Shown: in pieces, positions 8,811 to 60,333 of the stretch
Layout of the letters: each line of letters opens with the position of its first letter
Numbering within the stretch: position 1 is the first letter of the stretch
NCBI GenBank assembly: GCA_034620365.1
Contig: JAQGEQ010000011.1
Coordinates: 806,001 to 870,000 of the forward strand
Direction of reading: 5' to 3'
DNA: 64,000 bases
Source: Pegea sp. RAD2-039
Taxonomy: Eukaryota; Chordata; Thaliacea; Salpida; Salpidae
Notes under the pieces: model-generated
What the model was told of the DNA's origin: nothing
The model's input: only the letters and a program-made list of their open reading frames with translations
Database searches by the model: none
Program-made: the position numbers and the translations under genes

Positions 8811-8941
8811 TTCTTTTTCAATTTTATATATATAACATTTTATGAAATTCTTTACTATTATATTGTATTGGGACTACTGAAATGCCATGTGTGACATCTT
8901 TTCCTTTTATATTTCCACCTTAATTATATTTATTCGGTATC

Positions 8942-9030
8942 ATTTGTTAGAATGTGTGTTAGCAAGAGGTGCTCTCTTCAAGCAATCTCTTTCTCGTTTA
9001 TCGTTATAAATAAAATAAATAATTCAAGCT
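8942..9030 (+). mobile_element. SINE 3'-part copy (truncated)
   Basis: The sequence from AGAATGTGTGTTAG through GGTGCTCTCTTCAAG to the AT-rich tail matches the 3' half of the full-length SINE at 45418-45620 (other strand) and the partial copies near 34212 and 39717. The tRNA-like head is missing. The open frame starting in it is a by-product of the repeat. Confidence 0.7.
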
Positions 9031-9837
9031 TATTCAACATGAGAAACTATTTAAGCTCGTTTACAGTAAAGACACTAACACCAGAAGAATTATTGATTGA
9101 AGCTTGCAAAGCCATCTTTGCAAAACACAAGTGTTGGACGTTTTTATCTTTTATAGATATCCGTACCTGGATATCTAATAAGTTTTTAATATAAAATAAG
9201 TTAACAGATAAAATCATTTGCAAGTAATTATATGTCTAATATATTCAAACAAAAAACAAATGTTCTATCAGTACATGATATTTCATAGCAAAAATAAATG
9301 TTTCAACTTTCTTCCGATTAACTTTTAAATTTTTCGTCAAGGGTTATTAGCTTGAAAATTTATTTTAAAGCTATGCAAGCCATAAGATTATCAACTCAAT
9401 TTTTCATGAACAGTTGTTTAGAATCTGTTTATTGATTTTCTAAGTAAAAACAATTTAAGATTATTTTTACAGCTTTTAACTTATTTATATGTATGAAGTT
9501 ATGCGTAGTTCGAAAAAGCTTTCAAGGGATTTAGGTTTGTATGTTGAAAATAAAACTTCAATAACTGGGTTATTAGTAAAATAGGTTGACGTGATGCTGA
9601 AATGTAAGCCGCGTTGAGACCATAGTCGAACAATCTTCTATTGAAGAGAGTGCTGCTTAGGATCGAAGCTTTTCTGAAAAAAATTAATCACAGATTACAG
9701 AAAACTTTCTAAAAATAAAAAAATAATAAAATAAATAAGTTTTCATTTATTACAAAGATAGATAACAATGTAATTTTTAAATCCAGAATATTAATTTTAG
9801 TTAAGATTGTTTCATTACATGGTCTAATCTCATATAA
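9031..9837. other. Intergenic stretch before the inverted repeat
   Basis: No gene or repeat is recognisable here. It ends where similarity to the right arm of the inverted duplication begins. Confidence 0.5.
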
Positions 9838-19060: not shown

Positions 19061-20284
19061 AAAAAAACTTAACAGTAATCAATTCTAAGTTTGTCGTATC
19101 CCTTGAGATTATTTGCTTTTATTTAACCACAACGAATAAAGTTTAAAAAATCTAAATAATATTATGCTTGTAGGTATAATATATGAATTATTCAATAAAC
19201 TATAAGTAATTGTCTTCTATTTTTGCAATTTCTGGTAGCTTGTAATGTTTAACTTTTAAGTCACTAGGAAAAATTCAGGTAATGTTTTATCAAACTGAAA
19301 TAAAGCAAATGAACTCTTTATTACAACGTTTATTAGCAGACAATTTTTAATTTACAATAAGTTTTACTGTATAAGAAATCAGATAAAAACTTGTCAAGTA
19401 GTCAATCTTGTAAGTTATATTAATTAAATGAGTTTAAGTATGCTTCAAGTTTAACTTTTTATTAAAACAACGTACTGTCATTTTTAATTAATGTATTAAT
19501 AATAAGAAACGACTGATATCGAGTTTTAGCAATTAATAAATAAAATTTAATTTACTTGATGCCAAAATATTTTGCTGAAGTTTGAGTAATAATCAAATCA
19601 AAGTATAAGGAATGACAGTATGCGTCTAAAAATGATTTTGATAATTTCAACTAAATTAAAGACTAGTTTTTCCCATTAAATTGATTACATTTTCTTTCAT
19701 GCGATTTATTTGTTCAGCTAAACGACGCTGTTTTAGCTTTTCTAAGTTAATGAACTAAGCTTTAGTCTGAAAACATAATTAAAATTTTATTGTTAGATAA
19801 AATAAAACTAATAAACTTAATGGAAATGAAAAAGTTAGCTGTTAAAAAGGATTTTGTAAAAAAAACTAAAGTGAAATTTAACAAAATTTGGAAGTCAAAG
19901 TCAATCATTTATTTAATTTGAAGCTGCAAAAATTTGAAGTTGAGGTAGTTAGTGTTATCCAAACCTGACTGGATTTAAACTTGATTTGGAGAATAGAGTT
20001 TAGAAATCAGTTGAGCAACAATTATTAGTGAGAAAACTTTACAAAACCTTATACATAAGATAAACTGTAAAAATGAATCTGTAAAAACTATCTGAAAAAC
20101 TCATTTTATTTCTCTGTATCTAAACTAAATATAACTAATCAACTGAATACTCTAATCTTCATATTTCAAATGTTTACTGATGCTTTTTTGATTCTCTAAT
20201 TTGTTGTTTATGAAAGAAAAGAAAATGAAAGATCGAAATGAGGAAGATGTAGATTTTATTACTTTCAATTAGAACAAATCTTCA
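19061..20284. other. Intergenic stretch downstream of DIS3
   Basis: AT-rich, with no gene or repeat that I can identify. It would contain the 3' untranslated region and polyadenylation site of the minus-strand DIS3 gene, which I did not place. Confidence 0.5.
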
Positions 20285-23053
20285 CTAAGACTTTTGAGAT
20301 ACATCAACACTAACTCCTCGAATAAAAGGACTTATCAGATGCATATTGATCCTTTGGTGTTGGATGTTAGAGGCATCATGCGAAATACGAACGACCACTT
20401 TATCAAACACGTGAAGTGTGACGTCACGCACGCTCACTAAACAGCGCTCTTCATCATAATGCAGCTCAGCAGGATCAAGTCGCTCACCAGAAGAGCTACA
20501 CCGATCAAGGAAGACAGTTCCTTCTAGTCCATATTTGGTTATGAGGACTTGAACAGCGTTTTTACGAGCAAAGATGACATAAGCTTCTTCATCAACAGTC
20601 TTACCGCGAAAATAAATTTGAGTGTGAAGAGCTACTGAAGCACGCTGGGCGTATTGCGCCATCCGGTGGCGAATATTGAGATTAGCACAAACCTTATGGA
20701 TGGCGTGTTTGTCGAGAAGTTGTGGAAATGTTCGATCGGCATCAATGCTAGCAGCAAGTAACCGATGAACCATGATGTCAGAGTAACGACGAATTGGTGA
20801 AGTAAAGTGGGTGTAGATAGGAGCAGCAAGACCATAGTGACGGAAATCAGATTCCAAACCACTACAAAAATAAACTGCCTGCATCATGCATCTGGTTGCT
20901 AGGATACGCAGCAGGGTAGCTACGTGTGATGACGAGGTGTTTTCGAGCGCATCTAGGGACAGTGCTAGGTCACGTGATGTAGCTGTGGATAAATGGATGT
21001 TACGCGCTTTTGCTGAATTGATGAGGACATCAAAGTTGGAATTTGGTGGTTCTGGGTGACGACGAAGAACCGCGCAATCAGCGAATTCGCTTTGGATGTG
21101 GCGAGCGACTGAACAATTAGCCAACAACATAAACTCCTCGACCATCGAGTTGGTTTCACGAATTTCTTTGGTATGCAAATCGATGGGGTCATGAGTCTCG
21201 CTGTCGACATGGAAACGAACCTCAGCAGAAGCTAGGCTCAAAGCACCTGCTTCGATTCGACGCGATTTTAAAAGCTTCGCCAACTTGTTCAGATTTCTCA
21301 ATCCTTTCGTGATGTCATCAGTCTGTTTCTCGTCATTGATCAACATTTGCGCTTGTGCATACGTCATAGAGGATCTCGACCTGATTACAGACTTGCAGAA
21401 TTTGGTCGAGACAATCTGGGCGTCCTCGGTCATGGTCCAGAGACAGGAAAAAGCCAAACGGTCACCATCATCTCGAAGTGAGCAAAGGTTAGAGGACAGC
21501 AGTTCAGGGACCATATCAATACGTTTGTCACACAAATAGACAGTTGTGGCCCTTTGACTTGACTCTTTGTCCAGAGGGGTGTTAGGACGGATGAAGTAAG
21601 TGACGTCAGCAATGTGGACACCAACCTCAAGAAGTCCGTCTTCTCTGGGACAGCAATGGAGACAATCATCGATATCTGTACATCCGGGAGGGTCCACGCT
21701 ACAAACGGGTAGGTGACGTAAGTCGGTGCGACGTTTCAGTTCCGTTTCAGGAATCGTCCAATCAGCAGAAGGCAAACAGTTAAGGACTGCTTGTGAGAAG
21801 GGTTCATGAGCAATGTCGTGTTCCAGAAGAATCACTTCATTTTCAGTGTTTTTATCACCAACTTCGCCCAACGCGCGAACAAAATGTCCGTGAGGGTACT
21901 TAGAGTGCCGGGGCCAGGAATCAATGGCAACTAGAAGCCTCTGCCCGAAGAGCTTTTCAGCTTGTTTGGTTTCGATTTGGATTCGTGGAATCCGTTTAGC
22001 TGCTGGTGTAAAAAGATGTCGCGTACTTTTAGCGCTGTTAAATTGCTCCAAGATTCCACAGTAAGGTCGCCAATTACGTTTGATGATACCAACAACTCGG
22101 CCAGTGGGTACTCCGCCCCGTCTCTTCTTAGCTGCTGGTCCTTCCCCATTTTGCTTGATTTCAGCTCCAGGTTGCATTGTGACATCAAGAACCACATCAC
22201 TCGGCAAGCTCCATCGTGATTGGTCGAAAACTTCAATAGCAATAATATCTTCATGAACCGCGCGATTTAGGTTTTCACGACCTTGAATCAAGACTTCTTT
22301 CTCATCATCAATTGAGACTCGACCTTCTAAATAGTTGTCCTGTGAGATTCTCAATTTACCTTGATGGTATTTGCCACTTTTTATTCCAATATTTAAAGTT
22401 GAAAGTTTGAGATGCTCATGATAGGAACATTTGTTGTTAACTTCAACTGTTTCATCATTCTTGGCTAACTTATCAGCAAGTTCAGGAAACCCAACTACAG
22501 AATTGAAATATTCTTCAGCAGTAACACAATCAAGTCCATCAGCTACTGCTTTCTCCTTGTTTGCTTTATCATTAGTAATAAGAACACACATCTGATCTCG
22601 TTCTTTCAGTTGTTGGTTGTAAAATGTAGCAGCAACACGAATCAATCGATCATTTAGATCATTGCTGGACTCTCCCTTCTTTCTTTCTTCCCATGTATCT
22701 TTACAAAGCTCATTTGAAAAAACAAAAAAATGTTTGTTTGGTAGCTCGATAAGAGAACGAAGTTTTTTGTAGATTGCTGAAGACCTATGTCGCACTTCCT
22801 TCAATACTGTCTGTAGAATGATCACATTTTTCACGGATGAATGATCAAGAACATCCATCTGATGAAGAACAACATTTGTATCAGGACATATGTAATGTTC
22901 AGATGGAAATAGTTCACTTTTCAGTGATGGTATCCTTTCTAGTTTGTTATTTTCTAATCCTGTTTCTATATCATCTCTTAAATAATGTTCACGAACAATT
23001 CTTAAAATCTTTTTAGATTTTGTTTTAATTAACAAAGTTTTTGACTTTAACAT
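20285..23053 (-). CDS. DIS3: Exosome ribonuclease DIS3/Rrp44
   Basis: A single uninterrupted frame of 922 residues encodes the catalytic subunit of the RNA exosome, a 3'-5' exoribonuclease with an N-terminal endonuclease. The N-terminus L-K-S-K-T-x-L-x-K and R-E-H-Y-L-R-D-D-I matches animal DIS3 and supports the start. The PIN domain (about 54-190) has P-D-T-N-V-V-L-H-Q with its catalytic Asp58. Cold-shock domains (about 215-420) contain G-I-K-S-G and G-R-V-V-G-I-I-K-R-N-W-R-P-Y-C-G. The RNB domain has the D-P-P-G-C-T-D-I-D-D metal-binding cluster at 454-463 and later R-R-Y-S-D, followed by an S1 domain at the C-terminus. Two oddities: the CR3 cysteine motif between the N-terminal helix and PIN is absent (residues 29-55 contain no cysteine), and the gene is intronless and much richer in G+C than its surroundings. 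It sits alone in the spacer of the inverted duplication. Confidence 0.97.
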   Translation of the reverse strand: MLKSKTLLIKTKSKKILRIVREHYLRDDIETGLENNKLERIPSLKSELFPSEHYICPDTNVVLHQMDVLDHSSVKNVIILQTVLKEVRHRSSAIYKKLRSLIELPNKHFFVFSNELCKDTWEERKKGESSNDLNDRLIRVAATFYNQQLKERDQMCVLITNDKANKEKAVADGLDCVTAEEYFNSVVGFPELADKLAKNDETVEVNNKCSYHEHLKLSTLNIGIKSGKYHQGKLRISQDNYLEGRVSIDDEKEVLIQGRENLNRAVHEDIIAIEVFDQSRWSLPSDVVLDVTMQPGAEIKQNGEGPAAKKRRGGVPTGRVVGIIKRNWRPYCGILEQFNSAKSTRHLFTPAAKRIPRIQIETKQAEKLFGQRLLVAIDSWPRHSKYPHGHFVRALGEVGDKNTENEVILLEHDIAHEPFSQAVLNCLPSADWTIPETELKRRTDLRHLPVCSVDPPGCTDIDDCLHCCPREDGLLEVGVHIADVTYFIRPNTPLDKESSQRATTVYLCDKRIDMVPELLSSNLCSLRDDGDRLAFSCLWTMTEDAQIVSTKFCKSVIRSRSSMTYAQAQMLINDEKQTDDITKGLRNLNKLAKLLKSRRIEAGALSLASAEVRFHVDSETHDPIDLHTKEIRETNSMVEEFMLLANCSVARHIQSEFADCAVLRRHPEPPNSNFDVLINSAKARNIHLSTATSRDLALSLDALENTSSSHVATLLRILATRCMMQAVYFCSGLESDFRHYGLAAPIYTHFTSPIRRYSDIMVHRLLAASIDADRTFPQLLDKHAIHKVCANLNIRHRMAQYAQRASVALHTQIYFRGKTVDEEAYVIFARKNAVQVLITKYGLEGTVFLDRCSSSGERLDPAELHYDEERCLVSVRDVTLHVFDKVVVRISHDASNIQHQRINMHLISPFIRGVSVDVSQKS

Positions 23054-26000
23054 ACTTTTTTGTTAATTTCTGAGATAAATACAGAAACTTTGAATAAATT
23101 TGTAAAAAATATTTGTAGCTTTTAAATAAAAAAATATGACTAATTTGAAAGTTAAGTTTGTATCAAGATTATCAATAAATATAGTTCAATAATTTGACTA
23201 TTAATTTAAAACATATCATATACTTATGATAATAAAATGTTGTTTAATAATAGCTTTTTTAATAAGTAGAAGCTATTTCAATTTTAAAATATATCACTAA
23301 GGCTACTAATAAAATGAACCAATTAACACTTCAACAAAATATTTTATACTTTATAGGTTTAAAAACATTTTAGAAGTAGTAAAAAGCTATTATTAGAGAA
23401 CTAATAAATAATAATTATTATTATAATATTACAATCAAATCAAATAAATTTAAACTAAAAAAAAATGAATAAAAAATTTAAAGCAAATAAATTCTATTTT
23501 TTTAAATAGAAAATCTTATTTATCTGTAATCATTTATAAATCACAAATTAAGGTGATTATTAAGCCACTTATAAATGGATCATTATAAAAAGAAATAAAA
23601 AAGTTTAGATAACTTATAATCTTTAAAGAAAAATTAATCAAAAAATAGATGTACCAAATATAAATACAGGACTTGAAGTTTAATAATAAAATGATGTACT
23701 CACTTTTTATTACTTAAAATAGTATCATATATAAATTGTTTAAGAAAATACCTCTTTATAAGAAATATATAAATTTCAATAAATACTTTAAAAACAAATA
23801 ATAAAGAATATCATGAATACTATGAAAGGAAATTCTATTTAAAAAATAAAAAAGATTATAATAATCTAAATAGAAAAAATATTAAATGTATAAAACTAAA
23901 TAATAATAGTTTTATTTCAATTAATCTATTAAAAAAGCAAACTTAAAAATTTTAGTTATATCAAAATGTCTATGAATTGATATGTTTCTAAAATAAACTA
24001 TTAAATATAAAGTAAAATATATCAAAAACATAAAGAAAAAACACAAATAATAAACTAAAACAAAATGTTATAAGAACTTTTTTGATGATATCTGGTTGAA
24101 TTATAAAACATTAATTGAATCCACATTAATTATAAGATTAACTTGATTTTGGAGTTAAATCAACAGAGTCAAAAAATATTTCATTATGAACGAAGATTTT
24201 TTTCTTTTCCATAAAGATGTAACATAATTACAAGAAGAATTTAGTGGCAAGCACCCATTTTGTCTGATATAAGAAAAGTTCAAATGCTGCGCAGAACATA
24301 CATATTAATATGGCTACTTTGAGTATTTAGGCAGCTAAACTACATTATTCTAGGATTTGATTGATTTCATTTATTTTAAAACCTAGTTTTATAAAAAAAG
24401 AACTAAGTTTTTAATAAAGAGCTTTTTTATTATTTTTTATTTTCAAGTTAATGTTATAAAGTGGTTAAAACCAACTATAAGCACATCAGTATACAAATTA
24501 ATTCATTCAGACTGACTTTAAAGAAACTTTTATTACTGTTATTTATCTGTCTATGAGACATAATAAAGTTTGAGGTTAAATATTCTTCTTATTAAAAGTC
24601 AAATGATACAATGCACCGAAATTAACAGTAAATGTTTATGACAAAAACTTCTAAAAATTCTTAATACTTATCGACTTTCTTAATACATTGGACCATACAA
24701 ATATATCCAAAATTTAGTATCTAATAATAAATATTATGGTAAAAAACGGATTTTAAAGCTATTTAGCGCGTAATCTTTTAAATCTAATCTTCTGGTAAGT
24801 GTAAAAGATTAGCTGCTGTAACAAAATTACCAAAAATTAATTGTATCATCTACATTAGTTACCATAACCAGCTGATGGAGCAGGACAACACGGTTAGTTA
24901 GTATGCAATCAATCTTAAGATACTAATTTCAAATGCTGGCAGAAAATTATTAGTGCTACCATGCCTAAAATATATCAATGAACAATTGCAATTATTTACT
25001 TTTGTCATTTACTACTACAACAATTATTTTATTTTGCCTTTAATATTCTCAAAATATTCCAGAAGAGAGCTCAGTCCTACTGGTTGGATAATGTCATTTG
25101 TCGTTTGCTGACTTCTTTCGCATATCTTTAGATTTTGACCATGAGTTAGCGCTTGCCTCGGTAGCACAGAAGAGAACAATAGTTTCATTATCGAATGTTC
25201 AGATTTTTTCTTAGACTCTACTTACTGTAGACTGAACTTTCTTTCGACTTTGCTCTTAATATGAGTTGTAATGTGAAATGGTTGTTGTAGTTTGGATTTT
25301 CCTTATGTACAATTTTCACAAACCAGTCGCTTTGAAGCCAAAGAATGATGACTCTCAGGCTGCACACTTTTCATTTACTATATTTGCATAAAACAGTGGC
25401 TCTAAGGTATCCTTAACTAGGTGAAGCTATTGTCAAACTTCCTTTTAAACTTTAATGTCTAAGTTATTCAGTAGGCAGCCACTTCTGAGTTCTAACCCAG
25501 TCTAGTAAAGGACCTTGATTACCGGAATCACCGTAAAATATAAGATTGAGGATTTATTGATTCTTTAAACATCTGCTTATTATGCCTTCTACTGTCTTCC
25601 ATAGACCTTCTTCCCCGCTAATTTGTCCTTTACTTGTATTCAGGTGCAGATGACACATTATATAGCTCTTACAGTGAACACAAAATAATATGACTGCAGA
25701 AAGATAACAAAAAAGTCTTAAGTATCACAGCTTTACATAAATTGATATAGAAATTAAAACAAGAAATTTGAAGAGTTAAAAAAGGATATAAACCAAAAAT
25801 AAGATGAGAAAATAAGGGAGAAACTTAAGAAACTCTCATTATTATATATCACTCATTAACAAAATTAATAAATTCATATCTTTTTAACAAATCTTTAAAG
25901 GAGGTTATCGATTTTAATGGGTTCGGGAAAGAAAATTTCGAACCGCAGTTACCCTATTGAAAAAGTTGTTAATCCAATGAGTATTTTTTAAGTTGCAGAG

Positions 26001-33751: not shown

Positions 33752-34207
33752 TTAATGAGGGTACATCATCAAATTAAAACTTTTTTGATGCTCAATTATT
33801 AACACATATTCTTTATTTTGATTAATCAACTAGCATAGATATTTATTTATAATTTAATTACTTAAAGCTAATAAAACAAAGTATCAACATTGCTAAATAA
33901 ACAATGTCTTATATAAACAATGTTTTTATAATGGCCTTTAAAACTTTAAGTTTTATTGGTTTTAAAATGTTGATAAATAACTGAAAAATAAGTCATTTTC
34001 ACATCAAATCACTGATAACTAGTTAAAAGACCAGTAGTAGGATAAATGTCTTACTAATAAGTTTTTGAAATTAAATTTGCATGTCTATAGACATTTTAAA
34101 TAAGTTAAAAATTTAAATTTTATTTATATTTATGTTTGATTACAGTAATCTTTGTAAGCTACAGTTATAAAACTTTTCTTTCTATATTTCTAACTTAGTA
34201 GATATTT

Positions 34208-34285
34208 ATTTGTGAGAATGTGTGTTAGCGGGAGGTGCTTTCTTCAGACACCCTCCTTCGAATTTATTGAAATAAATGAATATTT
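34208..34285 (+). mobile_element. SINE 3'-part copy (truncated)
   Basis: GAGAATGTGTGTTAGCGGGAGGTGCTTTCTTCAGACACCCTCCTTCGAATTTAT-like sequence is the 3' half of the SINE seen in full at 45418-45620. The head with the pol III boxes is missing. It lies just outside the right arm of the inverted duplication. Confidence 0.75.
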
Positions 34286-36357
34286 TATTTTCAGAAAAAC
34301 TTGGATTCTAAGCAGCAGTCTGTTCAATAACAGATTGTTCTATAATTTTCAACTTCTAACACAACCTCACTACCTAAAGTATTTAAGAAAAGATTTTTAT
34401 CTGAGTTTGTTTATTAGTTTCTTATCTAAACTTTCTCATAAATGTAAATGATAAGTTGACTGAATAATAAAGTATTCAACCTTATAAATTAGTTCACACA
34501 AGCAGCTGATGAAGCAAAGCAAACAGAGCTAGAAACTAAACTTAAGCTACAACAAGTAAAAATAAGATATATAAAATAATATAAGGAGTTCAGAATTTCA
34601 ACGCTACTAATAATATCACCTAATCATTTGTCGTTACCTACAGCCATAGCGATAATTTGGCTTTTTTGATGAAATTAAATACCAACAAATATAAATAGTG
34701 AGGCGTAGGACTTTTTAAACAGTTTTCTTGAAAATATTTATTAATTAGTAAAAATTTATTCTCATTTATAAGTCCAAGAAGACCCTTAGATCGAGGTATC
34801 TAAATACTTATATAAATTACGCACAGGGTACTAATTACAGTTGTTAGCCCGACAGACAGATAAAAGCTAGACTATTTAAGCTTCTAAAGCAACGTGTCTA
34901 AACCGTGGCCTTGTTATCTGCAACAACCCTTACAACAAGAACCCCACTAATGTTTGCACCAAGAACACCTTTTTGGTAAGACTTTGCACAGAGTACTAAG
35001 ACATGCATTTTTCATCTGTAAATGGCTTCTTGTGACAAAAATAAGCTAATAAATTTAGCACCATAAATATTGTGCAATAATCAAAGCACTATTGTTTAAT
35101 GAGAATACATTTTCCAATCCTAGCAAACCATCAAGCTGACGAATACCGACTTTGTAAACAAGCTCACGTGACGTAAAGGCGAAATGAGTTTCTTTGTAAT
35201 GTTAATGGATTTATTTATCAATTGTATGACAATAAAATCGTCTACAGTTTCCAATTTCATTCAGTTGGATATGCAAACCGATTTAGGGATAAAACAAAAA
35301 TTTAGATAATTTTCTGCGGAGTTTTTGATGAAAATGCTCCAACTTAGAAGTAAATAATTATAAAATTCTTTGTGTATTCGGGCCCGCTTATAGATGTGAG
35401 TCTTTTTCAGTGAAATTTTTAAAGCAAGAAATGGATATCGCAGCCTATTAAACAAAAAACATCTTAAGCAGTTTTTTTTTCAAACTGGATGCAGAATAAT
35501 TACCACCTTATCTAAATTGTTAACATTAAAATAAAAGTCAGATCTTGCAGTCAAACGACTTTGCTTAAACTTCTCTATTCTTGTTTGTGTTTGCTTGTCA
35601 GTAGATTTAATGTACTTTTATGGCATTTTTAATAAAAGAAATTTGCGACTATCTTCGTGTCAAAAAGTTTGGGAACTTTAGAATTTGCGCCCAAGTGTGG
35701 ATTAAGTGAGTGATAAAGAGCAATATAGACTAAGAGTCTATAAAAGAACAAGTTCTCGGAGCTTTAGTAGTTCATTTAGAGTCATTTACTTTAATAGAGT
35801 TCATTTTTAAAGAGATCACAGAATATTTATCTGAAGCAAATATTACAAATGTGCTAAAAAATTAAAATTTTGTCACAAAAATTTATGTTTATTGAAAAAT
35901 GTAGCAAATCATGTTTGAATGAAAAATCAAATAAAGTTGTCAACAAAGTCGCTGATGTAAAAGAATTGAAAAGTCAGATGAAGTACTAAAGTAGCTAAGC
36001 AGCATATCACAAGTAAAAATCTAAAAATTAAGCTACAAACATCATTGAAATGATCATCATCAAATAATAAGAAACATTCAAAAGTTTAAATACTTATAAT
36101 AAGTTGATACAGAGTAGAACTACTAATTTTGAAAATGTGAAATCATTCTTAACAATCAAGCTATTCCTTTAAACATGATTGCTTAATAGGATGCGATAAA
36201 TCTCATGTTTAACTGCTGGCGTTCCATTTATTTAAAAAGTAAGATACAATTTGAACCGTAAAAACTCCTCGGCCAATGTCCAAAATTATTTTGTTTGGCT
36301 GTGAAGTATTTACTACTTTTTATTCTTCCAAAAGAAAAATAAATTTGAAATTGTTGT
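34286..36357. other. Intergenic stretch
   Basis: No gene is supportable here. Several short frames lack family motifs. The sequence near 34780-35200 is slightly less AT-rich but unassigned. Confidence 0.5.
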
Positions 36358-40794: not shown

Positions 40795-43700
40795 CTAGTT
40801 TGACATGAATATCTCCAACAATAAAGGTGATTGACTAAAAGAGGTTCCGAATGAAAAGCAATTAGATCCTCCTCCTAATACTAAGATTGAGATCTTCCAG
40901 CCTTCGGAGCACTCTTCTATCTTTCTGATGCAACTAGTATGTCCGTGAAAATGAAGAGGTAATTCTAGATGACTAGATGAGAAAGGCAATCTTCTAATCC
41001 AAGACATGGTCTCTAAGTTGATGATGGATACATCAGAAATAGGCTGAGTAATCAAGCAGACTCCTCCAACTAGAAAGAGATGATTTTTGATAATGTGGGA
41101 GGTGTGAGAGTAGCGCAAAGGAAGATTGGCAATTTGTAATCTGAAAAAGATCATTAGGAGTTGATGAGGAAGTTGAAGGTGTAACTCACTGTTTGACTCC
41201 CCACGTGTTTACATCAATGAAAATTAGTTTGCATCCATGATCAAGATCACAATCTTCTTCATATCCCAAACCTCCAGAAATCACTATCTTCTTTTTGGAG
41301 GAAAGATCCCAGGAAGAGCATGCATGAGAATGAATTGGAGGAAGATCGGATAAGATTGTCTTCCATGAAAATGTATTCAAATTCAACACAGCAACATCCG
41401 TAAAGACCTTTTGGAGGTCTCTGCCTCCGACAACAATCATCAAATCATCAACAACTACTGTTGTGTGTCTGTAACGAGCTTCTGGAACCGTCCCAGATGT
41501 AGAAACCTTATCCCAGCTCTTATGATCAATTGAGAATCTTAAGAGTTGATTGGATGACTTCATGGGAGAACTTCTGCCTCCAAAAAGTAATAAATAATCA
41601 ACAGAGCCATCTCGTGGTAGAGAAACTATAGTGGAGTGAAGACCGTGATCTATAGACGTGTTCAAGTTCTTCTGATCTGCATCATTTAGGATCAGAAGCT
41701 CCCTGATGCGAGTGTGGAAGTTTTTCCTAGTTGTATCAACGTTGTATGATACTCCAAAGCCTCCAAACACGAAAATTGGACTCTGAAATGATTTAAAGAG
41801 AAGATTAGACGAGATAAGAACAAGAATTTGTTTGAACCCTAGAAGTGACATCAGCACCATAAGTCGAGGAGGTTTAAGGAGGTTTTAACGTTATCAGAAG
41901 ATTTGAATATTTTTGTTTAACTTTTATCTTGTCAAATTGTATATCAAAAATTAAATAAGATTCATTAATTTGTTTTTCAAGAAGACTTAAACACATTTGT
42001 AGCGGAAGATGTCTTTGCTTAATTTTTTCTTTTTGGTTTATTATTCAGAAAGTTTTCAACTAAAATCTCATTCTAGTCGAAGAGCTTTTACAGACCGATG
42101 TACTAATCCAACTCAACTAGTTTTTCGCTAATTATCTGCTTTAAGTTATTTGGAATGAAAATCAAGATAATTGACAAACAACTAAAAAGAAAATTGACTG
42201 AAAAGTTTTGATCTTAGTAAGATAGTTGCGACATTTTTGTCGAATTAACTCTTCAAAGAGAAATTAGCTTACCTGATGAAGATTTGGCTGAAGAAGACAA
42301 CTTGTATGTCCATAAACTGACAGCTGGTAATCAAATGGTTTCAATATAGTCATACTCATATCAGCAGCTGGCCATTTACTCGAGATGTCTATGAAATTGT
42401 ATAAATGATGAGTTATAAATCGATGATCTTACCATAAACTTGATAATCCTTAGTTGGAAGTAGAGATTTAATGAGTCTTTGAAGATAGATATCTTGCGAA
42501 TTTGTGCTACAGAGAATAAAGTAGTGAGTACACATTCGATGCCATCCTTCAAACTCGTCAAAAGCTTCTAATTCGCTGATTCGCGTTTTTTCGTCACGCG
42601 AACAGTGAAGGCAATAAAAGGTCAAAAGGTCACACGCATTGACTGTTTGAAATCCTAGTATTTGATGCCTTGATATTTGATCTTTTAAAGTGGGATATTC
42701 GTCAATAGTTAATAAAGGACTGCTTATTTCATTAAAATGCCTGAAAAATTTTTTTTGAAAAATTATAAATTTGGTGATTTTTTTTGAGGGCATTTTTAGT
42801 TTTACTTTTTCATAACAATTCCAAACTCGTCATCTGGAATGATTTGTTCAAACTGACAAATAAAAGCATTTGAAAAATTGTATGAAATCCATTTTAAAAC
42901 TCGATTTGATTGTCCATGAGTTAAGTACTACAAAAAAATTAAAATAAGAATCAAAAGTACATTATTCAATTGACATTTAGTTATAAACAAAAACTTAACT
43001 GTTAATACAACTTCAGAAAGAAATAAGGTTGGTAAGTTCAAGTCTAAATCATGTTTTTTCAACATTGAAAGCAAATCTGAATCAATCTTTCTAAGATCAC
43101 ACCCTATCGCAACATAACTTCCATCATACTCTCTGAAAAATGACAAAATTTAAACTTTTTAGAAAACTATATTTTCATGTTCTTGGATCTCAATCTTATT
43201 TTTTAAACTTAATTTTCAATTTACTTATATCATTTTGAAACACTTACTTATAGATAGAACAATCATCTTCTTCTAAATATTTTCCAGAAGTAAACAAACT
43301 AGCTTGATTGGCTAAATCCACTTTTTGTCTCATAACCTTCGGAAAGTCTAACTCAAAATATCTTAAATTTTTCGAATAATTTTCTTTAACAGTATTAGTT
43401 AACCAGAAATAAGTTGTACCAAATCCAGCTCCAAGAGAAACAATTTGTTTAGGTTTGTTTTCATCCATACCTTTTTTGAAACTTAATTATAAATTTTGCA
43501 AATCAATTAAATCTTTTACCTTGTAACCAATTTGTGAGAACAGATCTAACAGCTCTAGCTCGTAAATAGTAAGATCTGTTAATTAATGGGCTTCTTCGTT
43601 TTTCTTTTATAACAAAATGTTTTACAAATTCATCTGAAATATATTTCAGTTTTGCCATGGAGCATTTACTGACAATGCTGTTGTTATTCGTTCCTTGCAC

Positions 43701-50990: not shown

Positions 50991-52158
50991 TTACATTCTA
51001 TCAAAACAAAATTACAATAACTTTGTGTCTGATAGAAGCTCTTTTCTACTAGAATGAGTTATAGAGCACTAGAAATTGTATGATAATTCTTAGTTTTTCA
51101 TCTAGATATTTGTACTCAAATAATCGACCATCAGGCTGTTCACATTTGCTTTACCCTAATGAATAATTTATCATTTTTAGTTTAAGAAATACTCTACAAA
51201 ATCCCTCTAACTCCACTTAAACTCTCCCCCTTTAATTATTTATGTTTTCCGAAAACTTTAACTTATTAAATATATACCGATTTTTAATTAACTTATTTTA
51301 ATTCTTAAAATTTGTTAATTGTATGAATATTAAATTTTTTTCTAATCATGTGATATTTTTTGTTGGTTTTATATATGTGATGCAATTTGGTGACAAATTT
51401 GTAAATTAATTTTTTTCGTACAAAATTTTTGTATCTTTTATTTTGTTTATTTTATATGTTAGATAAAAAATAAAAATAACTTTAAACGTTTAATAGAAAT
51501 TGTAGAATAAAAAAGCTGCAAGATACTGCTTCTAGGCTAAATTCTATGCTTCAAATTCGGCGATAGTTTATTAATTCTCATAGCTCTTTAAGCTTTATTC
51601 AAGTTAAATTAGAGTTATTTTGATGTTAATTTTTGTTGCTATCATGTTTACGTCTATTTGTAATATTTTACTTAATCTTTTTAAGTTAATTTTAGAATTT
51701 TTATCACATTTTTTGAAAAGTTGTTTTATTATAATGCTGTCAAGCTGATTAATTATGCTAGTTAATTTTTGTTAGCTTTTACGCAATAAAAATAAGTAAA
51801 TAATAAGGTTGTTTCTTTGAAATTTTTTACTTTTAATTTTAGTAATTTTATATGTTAATTTCTACAGTTTTATAAAACTTTACCTTTCAATTTTTTGATA
51901 GTCTTTTAGTACTTATACTTCTAATTATCTAAGTAAAATGTTCTAGCTAATATATATTGTGATAAGTCATATAGTTTAATAAGTCATAAATTTCTTGCAT
52001 AAGTTTTAAAGTCTTTTTTGTTTTAGTTAATGATTATATTTTTTTCAAATTTTGTTTTTGGTTCTATTTTAAATAATTGGAATTTATTATTTACATTTAT
52101 TAAGATTTAAAAATGATTTTTTTTCAATTATTATAGGTTAATTTATGTAAAAAAAATA
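50991..52158. other. Intergenic stretch upstream of RETREG
   Basis: AT-rich, and I see no coding or transposon signal. The ATTATAG just upstream of the RETREG start (near 52130) could be a splice acceptor for an untranslated leader. Confidence 0.45.
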
Positions 52159-53322
52159 ATGAATGAATTATTTTCAAGAAGAATTTTTAATGAACAACCT
52201 GATATAGTAGAAAACCCAAATGAAAAGAATAAAAGCTTAACAAAATATATCCACTCATATCTTAAAAGTTATGAGGCACTAATTTTATCTATTCAAAGGT
52301 TATTGGTATGGGAAAAGTTCACTCAATCCCTTATTTTTTTCATATATATTCAATTAATGTTTCTTTATGTCAAAACTAGAAGTGAACATATCTTTGGAAC
52401 TTTTTCTTCTGTGATGTTGTTTTTCTTTTGGCTTGATATTTGGAAAGAAACAATTTGGCCTGAAATTAGACTAGAAGCTCCCTCACCTGATTCTGAATGG
52501 GGTGAATTGAATCCACGTTTGTTAAGTCTTTATGAGATTTGTGAATTTTTATCTTTATTTATTATGACAATTAAGGAATTTGTTAACTCTGCTCTGGATT
52601 TACGTCGAACACAACATAAAAAGTTTACAACAATTGGCTGTTTTATATGTATAATTGGAGCAATTATTGGAAATTTAATATCTGGTACTTTAATCTCCTA
52701 TTTAATTTTATCTTTTTTCTGTTTTTGGCCAGCTATTTGGCATCATGAGCTGATGGATAAAAGTTATGTGCTAATAGAACCATTTGTTGTTAGACTAAGA
52801 TATGTTTTAAAGATAGATCAAACCCCAAATTATGCATCTAACAATTCTGTAAATTTTGAATCAGAAACACCAGATGAAGATTTCATTTCCAAATTTATTC
52901 CATTAGTCAGTGAATCTACTGCATCTGAAGTACTTTCAAGAGCTCTCACAGATGAATCAAGTCAATCTGATGAAGATAGTGATTTAGGAAATCAATATAA
53001 ATCCCATAAACATGTTTTTGATGATTCAAGTGATAGTGATAATGATAATAAGCTTGGTTTTGTACCATCTGGTTCTTATGTTGAACAATCTAAAAAAGAT
53101 TTTGTAAAACATGGAAATCAGTTAGTGAATGAAATTATTAAAGATGTTTCTAGTACAGCTGCAAACACATTTGGTAAAATGATGCAAGAAAGTATGATAA
53201 GTGGATTTGCACAGGTCAGATCTGCGGATGACATGGTTTCAACTAATTATGATCACAAAAGTGATTCAAGCAGTGATTTTGAAGTACTTGATGCTAGCCT
53301 AGAAGAACAATACCTCTCTTAA
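52159..53322 (+). CDS. Reticulophagy regulator (RETREG/FAM134)
   Basis: An intronless frame of 387 residues. RETREG proteins are ER membrane receptors that bend ER sheets through a reticulon-homology domain and link them to autophagosomes through an LC3-interacting motif. Here the reticulon-homology domain spans about residues 45-220: a Q-R-L-L-V-W-E-K motif (typical of FAM134) leads into a hydrophobic hairpin at 54-96, a linker with W-G-E-L-N-P-R-L-L-S-L, and a second hairpin at 154-196. The remaining tail is hydrophilic, Ser/Asp/Glu-rich and probably disordered, and contains S-D-F-E-V-L-D (residues 372-378), the LIR in its expected place very near the C-terminus and preceded by acidic and Ser residues. 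The start ATG lies right after a possible leader splice acceptor. Vertebrates have three paralogues; I cannot say which this corresponds to. Confidence 0.93.
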   Translation: MNELFSRRIFNEQPDIVENPNEKNKSLTKYIHSYLKSYEALILSIQRLLVWEKFTQSLIFFIYIQLMFLYVKTRSEHIFGTFSSVMLFFFWLDIWKETIWPEIRLEAPSPDSEWGELNPRLLSLYEICEFLSLFIMTIKEFVNSALDLRRTQHKKFTTIGCFICIIGAIIGNLISGTLISYLILSFFCFWPAIWHHELMDKSYVLIEPFVVRLRYVLKIDQTPNYASNNSVNFESETPDEDFISKFIPLVSESTASEVLSRALTDESSQSDEDSDLGNQYKSHKHVFDDSSDSDNDNKLGFVPSGSYVEQSKKDFVKHGNQLVNEIIKDVSSTAANTFGKMMQESMISGFAQVRSADDMVSTNYDHKSDSSSDFEVLDASLEEQYLS

Positions 53323-53877: not shown

Positions 53878-55704
53878 ATGGATTTCTTTTCAAGCCTTCC
53901 ATCAAAACTAAATTCCAACAAGCATGGAGGTTTTGTTTGCTGTGAAAGATTTAAGGTAATTAACTTGCTTGTTGTTCAATTTGATGATAATTAGTTGTTT
54001 ATCTACAGCAATGTGCTGAAACACTGATGAATGAAAATGGTGAAAGTACCCATTTTCCAACTCAAAAAACATTAAGTGAGATTCATCAAGCCATGGGGCT
54101 CAGTAAAGTAGCTGCAGCAGATCTTGAAGCAGTTTGCAGGTGACTTGAGATTTTTCATTTCTTACACTATTTTCACTGATTTGTTATCAAAGAAATCAAA
54201 ACAAATTCATCTGTGATCAATAATTAGTTTCCATTTTACTACTTTCACCTATTTTATGAGTTTTTGTGAAACAACCAATTTTTTAGTGGCCGAAGATTTT
54301 GCATCAATAGTGTTCCTGTGTAAGATAACATTTTGAGAGTAACTTTATATGATGCGACCATGTTTGTATCACTAAAGTGCTAATGATATTTCTTTTTAAC
54401 GTAGCTGTCATCAACAATCTTCTTTTAGTTTATCAACAACTTTTTTTTAACTTGACTTCCTGTTGTCATCTGACAAAGCGATGTGTTTCTAGTTGTTATT
54501 TTTTTTTATTTCAGCCCTAGCAGTTTTTTCTGTAATAATGAGAAGTTTGTTCAAAATTGGGATAATCCAATGGATTGTCCTAAAAATGTCAATTTACAAA
54601 CATTAGAAGAACGGATAAAGACATTGAAACACATGAGTACTGCAGAAGCCAGGAAGAAAGGCTGTGTAAAAAGCAGGTTCACCGACCTCGACTGTGCATC
54701 TGTACGATCTAATCCAACTCCAAATCCTAATTTTATCATTAAGTTGTAAATTATTTTACAGCAAGGGCAATTTGAAGGGGTTTTACCAATTGATAAGGAA
54801 GATGCAGTCTCACTTGATGAAGTCGTACTCAAAATCCGAGTGTCTTACCCGCGAACTGCCCGTCGATTCAAACATTTCTACTTCGACTTTGAATGCCTTG
54901 GTTCACAAGTAAGTGAATTCATCAGATGATTTCAACTATTTGTGACATCAAACTATCGAAGCTTCTTCACGAGCTGAGAGATGTCATCTGTTGTCCAATC
55001 GATGAACAAAATGTTACAGTTGACAACTCTACAAAAAAACTCAAAACAATTTGTACAAGTGGCTTCTTCTACATCGAAGGAAAGATTTATTCCGATTTCC
55101 GACGGTCAACAGATCACGATCTTTCTGTGTTCGTTTCTAAACTCTTAATTATTTCCCTTTTTTACTATTTTATTTGTTTAGAAATATAAAAGAGTGGGTG
55201 AAAACTGCAAAAACCGATCTCCCAGCTAACATCGAAAGTTGTTGCATGAATAATATAGCACTTCGTGAGCTTACAATTCAATTAGGCAAACGATACGCTT
55301 ACTTACATCAAGGAGATTGTGAACATGAAATTACATTCATCAGTTTGAGGTTTATACTTCTATCTTTCTACAACCATCTAACTTCTTTTTCACAGACTGC
55401 ACGGTCCCACCGATTGTCAATCATCTTCTAAATATCCGATTTGTGTAACGCGTCCACGAATTAAATCGATTGCATGCAAGGTTTCACCTCTCTCCTCTTT
55501 TACTCTTTTTGAACATTCAAATGGCAGGTTTGTGGAACAAGAAGTGCTACTTGGGTAACTTATGAAGATGAACTATCAGATGAAAATCCAAGCTTTTTCT
55601 GTGAGCAGTGTTATTACTGCTTACATTTCAGTGAAGACCGAAGCAAAAAATTAGGAAATTTCAACTCGATGCCTTTTGTGAATTTAGTTTCTCTTGGTCC
55701 TTGA
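53878..55704 (+). CDS. SNAPC3: snRNA-activating protein complex subunit 3
   Basis: Eight exons (53878-53955, 54009-54139, 54515-54701, 54762-54908, 54962-55128, 55182-55349, 55396-55480, 55528-55704) join in phase to 379 residues. Most introns are 46-60 nt. SNAPC3 (SNAP50) is the DNA-contacting subunit of SNAPc, which recognises the proximal sequence element of snRNA promoters for RNA polymerases II and III. Matching blocks: E-V-V-L-K-I-R-V-S-Y-P, F-E-C-L-G-S-Q followed across an intron by L-L-H-E-L-R-D-V-I-C-C, S-G-F-F-Y-I-E-G-K-I-Y-S-D, Y-L-H-Q-G-D-C-E-H, and the C-terminal zinc-finger region A-C-K-V-C ... A-T-W-V-T ... S-F-F-C-E-Q-C-Y-Y-C-L-H-F ... K-L-G-N-F. The N-terminal 130 residues are divergent. 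The donor of exon 5 (GTTCGT) is weak but is the only one keeping phase. It converges with the minus-strand kringle gene 268 bp downstream. Confidence 0.95.
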
Positions 55705-55971: not shown

Positions 55972-57681
55972 TTAGTTTGGTTTATTCGCCGCTTTTTTTC
56001 TTCCTGTGTTTGTTTGTGCCATGATATCATCAATTGAACCCCACAAACGCATAAATGAATCTAATTGAGATTGAACGAAACTTTGGATACTGGACTGTGC
56101 ATCATCGTCTCTTTTGGTGTACTTACTTCTCACATCTACAACATATCTGGTTTAGAAACTGTTTGAAACTGGAAGCCTCTTACCGCAGTCTGGCATCCCT
56201 TCAAATTTGGTATTTTTGACTGTTCCTTTAACGAGTGTTCCATTTTTCTCCGAACACCAACACAAGTGCTTATAGCACTGTGGCATCAATAAATCATATT
56301 AAGAAATTTACAAATACAAGTTTATTGTAAGTAAATGATCAATTTTAAGGACTTTTATCTTACTTGTAGAGGTAAGAAATAACCTTCAGTCAAATGACAA
56401 TAAGGCGACCACAACTTGTTTACTAAACCTTCAGCAGATTTAGATTTGTATCTGATGTGCCAACAAGAAGTCTAGATAATAAAACATTTGATCTTAAATT
56501 TCTAAACTCTTCATTTAAATCAACTTACACATTTAGGAACGTTACAAGGTTCCCATAAAATTTTATTTTTGATTCGAACATAACACCAAGGTACACCAGT
56601 TTGGTCAGGATCACGACACTCGTTGTGATGTAGAATATCTGTAAATAATTCATCTAAACATCATACAATTAAATATTTTATTTACCTTTTTCTTTCATTT
56701 CTTTGATAGTCTGATTTGCTAGACTGATATACTTATCCAAACTGAAATTTATCTTTTTATTTGGCCATTGATGTTCTTCTTCAATCTTTTTTTTCACATT
56801 TTCAAAGATTTCTATTTGCCTTTTTAGCTCCCATACAATTATGTCCCATTTTTCACACTTTTTCCCACTAGCAGTACGGCTCCGTTTACCTCTGTATTCA
56901 TCTGCTAGTCCTGAAAGTATATACAAAAAGTTGTTAATTAACCTATCCAATTTCAATTAACAAGTTTGTTAAAATCATGAAAAGATCAAAAGATGAATTA
57001 ACTGTTCAATAATTTTAGACATTTAGTTTCATCAATAAATGATTAGTTACATCAAATAACTTTCATGATTATTGTAACTTGAAATTGAGATGGGCTTACC
57101 AGGCTGATAACAGCCGATTTCATCTGTATAAAAAGGAGTTAACACGTAATCAAATATCTCATCATCAAAAAGCTTTTCCTTTCCAAGGCGATCGCATAAG
57201 AAGAATAAAGATATAAGACTCCTATTCCAATAGTTCTGCTGATTTTTAAATGCTTCCATCTTTTTATCATTTTCCAACAAGTAGTCGTTGATTTGGTGAG
57301 GTATCCACACTCTTAAACATCCTTCATTCTTTACAATTATTGTTCAGAAGAAATAATTAGTTTCAGATATTGTTTACAAAACACCAAAAGTATTTTTTCA
57401 GTCTGTTTGTACTCATGAAAGTAACATAAGTGCAGATTATTTAAAAATAATATTAATTACTTTACTTTGATTTAACAGTTAGTCTTATAATCGAGGTTGA
57501 ACAGTTTGTTAGCTATTTAAATAAACTAAAGCTACATAATATTTAAATAAACTTAAGTCGTTGTCTAGTAGTATTCTTTGTATAGCTTATCAAAAGATCG
57601 ATTAAAGAAATAAATTACCTTTTTGAATAAAGCTCCTAAAACTAAAATATACAACAGCCTGAAATAATTAAACAAGTTCAT
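55972..57681 (-). CDS. Secreted protein with expanded kringle and thyroglobulin type-1 domain
   Basis: Seven minus-strand exons: 57619-57681, 57100-57328, 56686-56910, 56529-56638, 56364-56471, 56184-56277 and 55972-56135. They join in phase to 330 residues. Residues 1-21 are a plausible signal peptide (hydrophobic L-L-Y-I-L-V-L-G-A-L). Residues 22-93 are unrecognised, with cysteines at 25 and 66. A kringle spans 94-209 with all six cysteines (94, 116, 180, 191, 204, 209) and the motifs C-Y-Q-P-G, Y-R-G-K-R-S-R-T-A-S-G-K-K-C, N-E-C-R-D-P-D, P-W-C-Y and W-E-P-C-N-V-P-K-C. The spacing fits kringles except between the second and third cysteine, where 64 residues replace about 29; the extra part is Lys/Glu-rich and probably helical. 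A thyroglobulin type-1 domain follows at 212-276 with six cysteines and C-W-C-S near 251-254. The last 54 residues are hydrophilic. Kringles bind proteins or ligands and Tg1 domains often inhibit cysteine proteases; the function here is unknown. Confidence 0.88.
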
Positions 57682-59505
57682 TCTTAAGCTTTCAACAAAT
57701 TAAATGAAAAACTTTGAGCTTGCTTTTTTTATCTATTTAATAAACGACTGAATTACGTTCACTGATGAGTGTTTGATAGTGTGAACAGAAACAACATTAC
57801 AAAAAAGCTATAAAAACAAAATCAAATCGAATAGTTATTTTTAAATATTAAGTTAGCCTACGCATTTTTTCCAAACCCAAAAATTTTGACAGCCGTTTAA
57901 TGACATATTATTGAATTAAAATGAAACAACAGATTTAATAAAAAAAAAGTATTCTCTTGCAGTATAATTACTCAAAAATAAAACTCGAAATTAAAACAAT
58001 TGTCAGAATTATAAATCGTCTAATAATTTTAAAGATGCTTGTAGATAAATAGGAATCAATATGATTCGTACAGTTTAACAATTAAAACTTTTATAAGAGG
58101 GTTCACAAAAGTTTAAGTGGTTTAATCCTGTGTTAGTTTTTAGATGAATGTTTACTTATGCATAAAACCATTTACTTTTTTAAGAAATTTGTCTCTTTTA
58201 ATTGATTATTGAAGTTATTTATATTGCTAAAACTTTACAAAGTGAATTACAATCCTTAGTTTACTTATTAGGTCTATTTTTTATTTATTTTTATTCTTCT
58301 GCGTACTAAGTTATCAATCCGTAAAATCTAGTTAACGGTTTGTTAGCTTCCACAATTTTGTAAAAACTGCTTAAATTGAAAAAAAAATGTTTACTCACAT
58401 CTAAATCTAAAGATTATTCTAAAGAACATATGCAATAGGATTTAGTGATCCAATCATTATATATAATTTATTACTATTTTTTTAATATCATTAATCAGTT
58501 ATGTTGAAATTTCATTTTCTTTGTAATCATCTTATTAAACTTAGTTTAAAAAGTAGTTTCTATTTAAAAAGAATAAACTTATTTGTTTGTGTTTTTTACA
58601 ACCGTTTTGATTTCTGCCAATGCAAATTACTTTTTAAAGACAATTTCAAATTTGTAAAACTAAATATTTTATAAATTTGAAAAAGCTGTTGAAATAACTT
58701 GTAAATATTTTCTTCACCTTTATTTTAAATAATTTAAATTTTATAACCAAAAATGCTTTTTACATTTTTGGCTTTACAACATGCCGTTTTTATAGTATAA
58801 CTACAAAGAGCTTTTTTTTTGTGCAAGCTATAAAATAATTTAGTTTGGCCAAAAACTTATTTGCATTTCAACAACGAAATACTATAGACGGTTGTATAAT
58901 TTTCATCAAAACTTTTGCATTGTTATAAAAATTTTAACAATTAAGTTTACAGTGTATTGAATCTCTCTTATCAAAATAAGTAATAGATTATTCAAATCTA
59001 TTTTTGAATGTTATATTTGTTTGGTTGATAATTAAAATTGATAATTATTTTATAATTACTTTTATTTTCAGTTTAAAGTACTTTTAAATTTAAGAATATT
59101 TATTCAAGTTTTTTTGATAGATTTTACTTTATATTACTCTTCAGTTTATAGTCTCTATTATAAAAACTAGTTAGTTTTATAATCATAGGTTTTATTAAAA
59201 GCTAAAATGAAATTTATAGATTATTTACTCTTGTACTTATACATTTTTAATGTTTTGAATTGAAGTAAAAAAGGTTATTTATAAAACTTTTTTGTAGTTG
59301 ATTCATACTAAGATTGATTTATTTTTGCTTAACACTTTATAGCTTATAAAGAAGTTTGTATGACTGTATCTCTGATTTGTGTTGCACAATTTTATTATAT
59401 TTTTATTTTAGAATTTTATTGAAAGTACTTTTATTGTTATAGCATCTTGTATATATTTTTTTATTTTGTAGATAGGTTATAGAAATTAAAGTTTCATAAA
59501 GCATC
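57682..59505. other. Intergenic stretch upstream of MTAP
   Basis: AT-rich region between the divergent starts of the kringle gene (minus) and MTAP (plus). No exon is recognisable. A TTTTGTAG about 35 nt before the MTAP start could be a leader splice acceptor. Confidence 0.45.
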
Positions 59506-60333
59506 ATGTTTGAAATAAAAGTTGGAATTATTGGTGGTACTGGAATGACTCAGCTTAATTTGTTCAAAAAAATTGAAGAAAAAACAGTTGAAACTCCTTA
59601 TGGCTCCCCATCTAGTAGTCTAATCTGTGGAAAAATGAATGAAGTTGATTGTGTTCTTTTATCAAGACATGGTAGACCTCATAATATCGCACCAACAAAT
59701 GTTAATTATAGAGCTAATATTTTTGCATTAAATCAAGAAGGTTGTAATATTATTTTAGCTACAACTGCCTGTGGTTCTCTTGTAGAAGATGTGAAACCTG
59801 GAAGTTTTGTTATAGTTGATCAGTTTATTGATCGAACTAATAAACGTGAAGCTACCTTCTATGATGGCAAAGCAAATAGTTTGAAGGGTGTTTGCCATAT
59901 TCCTTGCAAAAATAGTTTTGATGTTGCTTTAAGAGATGTTCTTTCACAAGCTTGTACATCTATTCCTGATGTTAAGTTTCAAAAAGGTGGTACTGTTGTA
60001 ACAATAGAAGGACCTCGTTTTTCTTCCTATGCAGAAAGTATTTTGTTTAAATCTTGGGGAGCAACAGTTATAAATATGACCCTTGTACCTGAAGTCGTAC
60101 TTGCTAATGAGCTTGGATTACCATATGCTTCAATTGCAATGGTTACTGATTATGATTGTTGGAAGAATGAAAGTTCAGTTTCTGTGGATGAAGTTATGGA
60201 AACTATGAAAGGAAATAGCATAAAGGCTACAAGTGTGCTAGTGAGTGCACTTGCACTTATTAAAGAACGTCAAAATCTTATTCTAAAATCGATTGAAAGT
60301 TGTAAAAAAATTGCAGCTTCATCAGTTATGTAA
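59506..60333 (+). CDS. MTAP: S-methyl-5'-thioadenosine phosphorylase
   Basis: An intronless frame of 275 residues, close to the 283 of the human enzyme. MTAP splits methylthioadenosine from polyamine synthesis into adenine and methylthioribose-1-phosphate, the first step of methionine salvage. Landmarks: G-I-I-G-G-T-G (7-13) with the phosphate-binding Thr; L-L-S-R-H-G-R-P-H; N-Y-R-A-N-I-F-A-L; T-T-A-C-G-S-L; D-Q-F-I-D-R-T; the E-G-P-R-F-S-S catalytic block; I-N-M-T followed by V-P-E-V-V-L-A; and T-D-Y-D-C-W-K with the Asp pair that fixes adenine. Position 200 is Leu in the N-M-T-L-V-P-E stretch where the human sequence has Thr. The start gives the family N-terminus, with the usual extra residues before G-I-I-G-G-T-G partly missing. 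Confidence 0.97.
   Translation: MFEIKVGIIGGTGMTQLNLFKKIEEKTVETPYGSPSSSLICGKMNEVDCVLLSRHGRPHNIAPTNVNYRANIFALNQEGCNIILATTACGSLVEDVKPGSFVIVDQFIDRTNKREATFYDGKANSLKGVCHIPCKNSFDVALRDVLSQACTSIPDVKFQKGGTVVTIEGPRFSSYAESILFKSWGATVINMTLVPEVVLANELGLPYASIAMVTDYDCWKNESSVSVDEVMETMKGNSIKATSVLVSALALIKERQNLILKSIESCKKIAASSVM

Follow-up and report, generated by a model that had tools for sequence, protein, structure and literature searches.

Organization of the locus

The window (the whole 64-kb stretch of DNA analysed here) exhibits on its minus strand a seven-exon gene (57681-55972), with a predicted product of 330 amino acids followed by a stop codon. Exon 1 (57619..57681) carries the start codon and a signal-peptide-like stretch (residues 1-21). 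Exon 2 (57100..57328) encodes a two-cysteine segment of no family that we could find (residues 22-93) and the first kringle cysteine, C94. Exon 3 (56686..56910) continues the kringle with YRG...C116xxW and then with an extra stretch, predicted to be a helical hairpin (118-142 and 148-171), and exon 4 (56529..56638) completes it (C180, C191, C204 and C209). The first part of a thyroglobulin type-1 (Tg1) domain, with C212 and C234, lies in exon 5 (56364..56471), and the second part, with C246, C251-W-C253-S and C276, in exon 6 (56184..56277). Exon 7 (55972..56135) encodes a 54-residue tail containing one amphipathic stretch (hydrophobic moment 0.39 vs 0.17 for shuffled sequences, p = 0.009) and the stop codon. 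All seven exons are on the minus strand.

The six introns (290, 189, 47, 57, 86 and 48 nt) are all of the GT-AG type, and their phases (0, 1, 1, 0, 0 and 1) match across all six junctions. On our home-made splice-site scores for donors and acceptors, exon 2 has the weakest junction, its acceptor (AAAG) scoring 2.0 and the remaining five acceptors 3.5-5.0. Under thresholds of our own setting, exon 1 is the sole ATG-led candidate in the 2.15 kb upstream that combines a hydrophobic stretch (11-residue mean 2.78) with a good donor; its residues V14 and G16 presumably fit the -3/-1 rule for signal cleavage. The predicted product of about 37 kDa contains 14 cysteines and four N-glycosylation sequons (residues 56, 152, 163 and 257). 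An earlier note, made from the letters of the window, had proposed a single gene of seven exons, and the splice sites and phases bear this out. Judging from the sequence, the gene model is in all likelihood correct and the protein real.

The segment of 72 residues upstream of the kringle (residues 22-93; cysteines 25 and 66) could not be assigned. No Pfam match was obtained between the start and the kringle, a search against the PDB returned one match up to E 10 (E-value = 0.82, not a relative), and a search against the own genome returned the segment itself only. The structure model of exon 2 is poor (mean pLDDT 43.1). The idea that this segment and the loop of the kringle form a repeat was rejected, the best pair having an E-value of 0.68.

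The gene has a tail-to-tail neighbour on the plus strand (54474-55704), the last exon of which matches SNAPC3 (48.5 bits, cut-off 23.8). Other genes in the window are a PNP_UDP_1 phosphorylase (59500-60330, plus strand), a RETREG/ARL6IP-like reticulon domain (52117-53319, plus strand), a DIS3/Rrp44-like exonuclease in one 925-aa frame (20288-23062, minus strand), and kelch and LCM methyltransferase pieces (40798-43486, minus strand). The GC content, read in 2-kb steps, is 43% at 20001-22000, over the DIS3-like frame, and 23-34% in the rest of the window. Such a low GC content would be compatible with a monogonont rotifer (24.95-31.14% in PMC11954553), but searches for the rotifer spliced leader, allowing up to 2 mismatches, and for COX1 both came back empty. 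Two similar frames on the plus strand (8895-9191, VRMCVSKRCSLQ.., and 34194-34448, VRMCVSGRCFLQ..) are perhaps copies of one repeat. Neither Rfam, at its gathering threshold, nor ARAGORN gave a hit in the 64-kb window.

A kringle with an extended loop, followed by Tg1

The predicted protein matches the Pfam Kringle profile (PF00051) in two stretches with 50.9 bits (curated cut-off 34.3, E-value = 2e-13) and the Thyroglobulin_1 profile (PF00086) with 29.1 bits (curated cut-off 20.6, E-value = 6.5e-7). Since both scores exceed the curated cut-offs, the two domains are not a chance resemblance. The six kringle cysteines (94, 116, 180, 191, 204 and 209) follow each other in steps of 22, 64, 11, 13 and 5, with C116xxW after the second cysteine (C2) and PWC191 at the fourth. 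The six cysteines of the Tg1 domain (212, 234, 246, 251, 253 and 276) come with the Q245-C246 and C251-W-C253 motifs, the latter in the form CWCS. Between the last cysteine of the kringle, C209, where the domain ends, and the first of Tg1, C212, there are just two residues, T210-S211. Good alignments with the kringles of plasminogen and tPA were obtained for both the first part of the kringle (CYQPGLADEYRGKRSRTASGKKCEKW) and its last part (HHNECRDPDQTGVPWCYV...LWEPCNVPKC). A PDB search matched 84 sequences, and the 60 listed are kringle proteins or thyroglobulin. The earlier note had described a six-cysteine kringle with these spacings, a six-cysteine Tg1 with CWCS, and the direct succession of the two in one gene; all the spacings were reproduced, the Tg1 assignment stands on its profile score, and the succession is supported by the gene model together with Pfam.

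Kringles that bind lysine possess the D55/D57 acid pair (DxD), the tryptophans W62 and W72, and a cationic residue. In the PDB alignments both tryptophans of this site (190 and 201) are kept. One acid of the two is retained, as D184, with T186 at the place of D57 and L200 at that of R71. This incomplete site makes a plasminogen-like binding of lysine unlikely for the present protein.

The step from C2 to the third cysteine (C3) amounts to 64, whereas 15 other kringles measured in the same genome have steps of 17-28. The values for four of these (C6, C258, C262b and C81) depend on the splice junctions chosen, and at least four kringle matches (C8, two at C262:894 kb, and C21:1764 kb) are left aside; the C8 kringle reads 28 by eye. 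Pfam does not take the length of this loop, which differs from kringle to kringle, as a criterion of the family. The loop of the present gene is nevertheless not of ordinary length. The extra residues lie wholly inside exon 3, and of the 63 residues that separate C2 from C3, 33% are Lys or Glu, in agreement with the one-exon, Lys/Glu-rich insertion described before. An AlphaFold2 single-sequence model of exon 3 alone folds this stretch into two helices (118-142 and 148-171) forming a hairpin, with a mean pLDDT of 77.9, a pTM of 0.60 and 27 of the 74 residues at 90 or above. The hydrophobic moment is 0.40 for the first helix (shuffled mean 0.22, p = 0.08) and 0.42 for the second (shuffled mean 0.19, p = 0.016). 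The helical finger that the earlier note had suspected is supported by this single-sequence model, the helix moment being significant for one helix of the two; the model counts as support rather than proof, because single-sequence models readily turn Lys/Glu-rich stretches into helices. Foldseek with the exon 3 model returned 146 matches up to E 10, the best at 1.4 and none at or below 0.001, all generic helical hairpins. The loop sequence obtained four matches in the PDB up to E 10 (best 0.17), none of them a relative. Prediction supports the replacement of the C2-C3 loop of this kringle by an antiparallel helical hairpin.

Coding status and origin of the loop, and the unity of the gene

The extra stretch might be an intron, wholly or in part, or be spliced out in some isoforms, in which case the protein would be a kringle with an ordinary loop joined to Tg1. 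Within exon 3 there are 11 in-frame GT-AG candidates that keep C2, and two of them restore a usual spacing: one of 105 nt (spacing 29; donor 5.0, acceptor 2.0) and one of 126 nt (spacing 22; donor 5.0, acceptor 4.0). Exon 3 has a weak codon score after C2 (2.2 bits over 57 codons vs 12.0 for the exon up to C2), which falls below zero near residues 148-165, in three of the last windows of 15 codons (lowest -5.6). However, on our home-made scores the donors of all 11 candidates range from 0 to 5.5, against 7.5-10 for the six introns of the gene, and the donor and acceptor sums of the 105-nt and 126-nt candidates are 7.0 and 9.0, against 11.5-14.5. A donor scoring 7.5 occurs earlier in exon 3, every in-frame use of which removes C2. 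The 57 codons after C2 are open, a state found in 1048 of 193476 (0.54%) noncoding windows of equal length, which overlap one another; 161 of these 1048 stop-free windows also reach the codon score of the loop. After C2 exon 3 is poor in T (21%), against 31-43% in the introns of the gene. The loop ends with ILHHN before C3, and this HHN end is common to three other kringles of the genome (C121, C76 and C11), a likeness that speaks against an intron although it would be retained spliced or unspliced. On balance we consider it improbable that the stretch is removed by splicing.

If the stretch is coding, it could still be a neutral extension devoid of a function of its own, such as a former intron absorbed at the splice boundary in the middle of the kringle. 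The weak codon score of the loop fits such an origin, as does its position at the 3' end of exon 3, adjoining a phase-1 intron whose split codon lies 7 residues before C3. The kringle of contig C81 is likewise interrupted by a phase-1 intron, which splits a codon 6 residues before C3; on this single parallel, the exon may have been extended into a former intron. Against this, the C2-C3 introns of other kringles are in phase 0 (C6, C258 and C262b) or phase 2 (C15), so the mid-kringle phase-1 site is not generally shared. An amphipathic periodicity of about 100 degrees in both helices and the compact hairpin of the AlphaFold2 model are likewise not what a neutral extension would suggest. We regard a functionless loop as rather unlikely, though a more serious alternative than splicing.

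A further question is whether a kringle gene (exons 1-4) and a neighbouring Tg1 gene (exons 5-7) have been wrongly joined. Errors of gene prediction are a known source of false domain architectures, according to one study (PMC3927609), and such an artefact would account for a pairing that has no second instance in this genome. Intron 4, between the two domains, is nevertheless a 57-nt GT-AG intron in phase 0. Exon 5 contains no methionine and is immediately preceded by a stop codon, so that the Tg1 part lacks its own start and signal peptide; if intron 4 were read through, translation would terminate after two residues. Two separate genes are therefore very improbable.

The genome searched for relatives comprises 105.7 Mb in 387 contigs. 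The whole protein obtained 10 rows, six from its own locus and four from other kringle loci (C81, C6, C15 and C121; E-values from 2.6e-4 to 0.026), and no paralogue of the kringle-Tg1 gene was found in this genome, a count to be read as a lower bound. At least 25 kringle matches are present in the genome, and many of these cover half a kringle within a single exon. The 25 kringle rows and 12 Tg1 rows, the latter not including the Tg1 of the present gene, have only contig C258 in common, where they are about 1.4 Mb apart, and no other kringle match lies near a Tg1 match; these counts are lower bounds, because a Tg1 domain spread over several exons may escape the search. The C81 locus, the best match outside the gene's own locus, was considered as a second kringle-Tg1 gene, the match extending into Tg1 (E-value = 2.6e-4), but was rejected, its frames being fn2, kringle and Lectin_C with no Tg1. 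Pattern searches gave 18 matches in viral contigs and 42 in prokaryote genome contigs, none confirmed as relatives; since neither collection is meant to hold animals, this absence is uninformative on conservation.

Several of the other kringle loci are of interest in themselves. The C81 locus (about 341944-338500, minus strand) has fn2, C-type lectin-like and kringle pieces in a row, resembling a mannose receptor with an inserted kringle; one of its three Lectin_C pieces is over the cut-off and two are under it. An unusual large mosaic is found on C264 (L043:1071-6197), where one intronless frame of 1709 residues contains five kringles, three fn2 stretches and TSP_1. Three ROR-like kringles (C6, C258 and C262:1021-1022 kb), which we so designate from the CSLLP/CSHLP motif before the kringle, each have a phase-0 intron after C2, giving several ROR-like genes in one small genome.

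Possible role and comparison with known proteins

Our leading interpretation, held tentatively, is that of a single-copy gene for a secreted adaptor or inhibitor, composed of the two-cysteine segment, a kringle bearing a helical hairpin, Tg1 and the tail. The signal-like start, the 14 cysteines and the four sequons suggest an extracellular protein. The disulfide core of the kringle would serve as a rigid base holding the hairpin out as a protein-binding surface; because the usual lysine-binding site is incomplete, the hairpin is the likelier surface for binding. The Tg1 domain may anchor the protein to an extracellular protease or matrix partner, or inhibit that partner, and the whole could act as a secreted adaptor or inhibitor. 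Cysteine and other proteases may be inhibited by Tg1 domains (the thyropins), though not by all of them, and for this reason the adaptor role appears more likely than the inhibitor role. A bolder form of the proposal, which we consider possible but doubtful, is that the kringle is a display scaffold, its hairpin a binding surface arisen de novo and rigidly coupled to a Tg1 protease inhibitor, in a family of the lineage's own.

The protein might instead be a structural component of matrix or cuticle that forms oligomers through its hairpin and amphipathic tail, with a non-inhibitory Tg1. The significant hydrophobic moment of the tail agrees with this, and a designed helical bundle comes first among the fold matches of the hairpin, albeit at an E-value of 1.4. 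The 330 residues exhibit, however, no repeats and no collagen-like or cross-linking motif that we could see, and the gene is single copy; a structural role appears improbable. To our knowledge, kringles are nearly always described as short-loop modules binding lysine or a partner. A kringle able to accommodate a C2-C3 step of 64 with a helical hairpin would show that the kringle fold can be the base of a new binding surface. The kringle-Tg1 pair would also extend the range of architectures by one that places a possible protease inhibitor two residues from a binding module. If it turns out that only one lineage has the gene, the gene would exemplify domain shuffling, its origin being traceable through its introns.

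The earlier note knew of no characterised family joining a kringle directly to Tg1, and no description of the pairing was found in the open-access full text searched. The open-access passages on kringle and thyroglobulin type-1 that were available do not join both domains. An unannotated kringle-Tg1 protein may already be present in a sequence database.

The kringles of plasminogen, apo(a), tPA and HGF share with the present one the six-cysteine core together with the motifs CYxxG...YRGxxSxTxSGxxCxxW and CRxPD...PWC...WExC. Among the PDB matches listed, plasminogen ranks first (E-value = 3.1e-18, several kringles summed). In contrast to plasminogen-type kringles, where the C2-C3 step is 29, the step here is 64, a threonine stands in the acid pair, and there is one kringle only and no protease domain. 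With Tg1 proteins the present gene has in common the six cysteines and the SPYC, LQC and CWC motifs, and thyroglobulin (6scj) matches its Tg1 part with an E-value of 9e-7 in the PDB. It differs from them in having CWCS, where CWCV is usual, and in the position of Tg1 two residues after a kringle.

The kringle genes of the same genome (C81, C264, C6, C258 and C262) share the kringle core, and C81 also resembles the present gene in the place of its mid-kringle phase-1 intron, but their loops are ordinary; no Tg1 was found in six scanned pieces of C81 and C6, nor in the C264 frame. KREMEN, ROR, neurotrypsin and MUSK resemble the present protein in placing a single kringle in an extracellular modular protein. 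Their kringles are joined to WSC/CUB, Fz/kinase or SRCR/trypsin domains (PMC3927609 for KREMEN, MUSK and neurotrypsin). Unlike the present protein, none of the four is known to have a Tg1 beside its kringle. The pairing of domains and the loop variant are new to the sources reached, and both are built from known modules.
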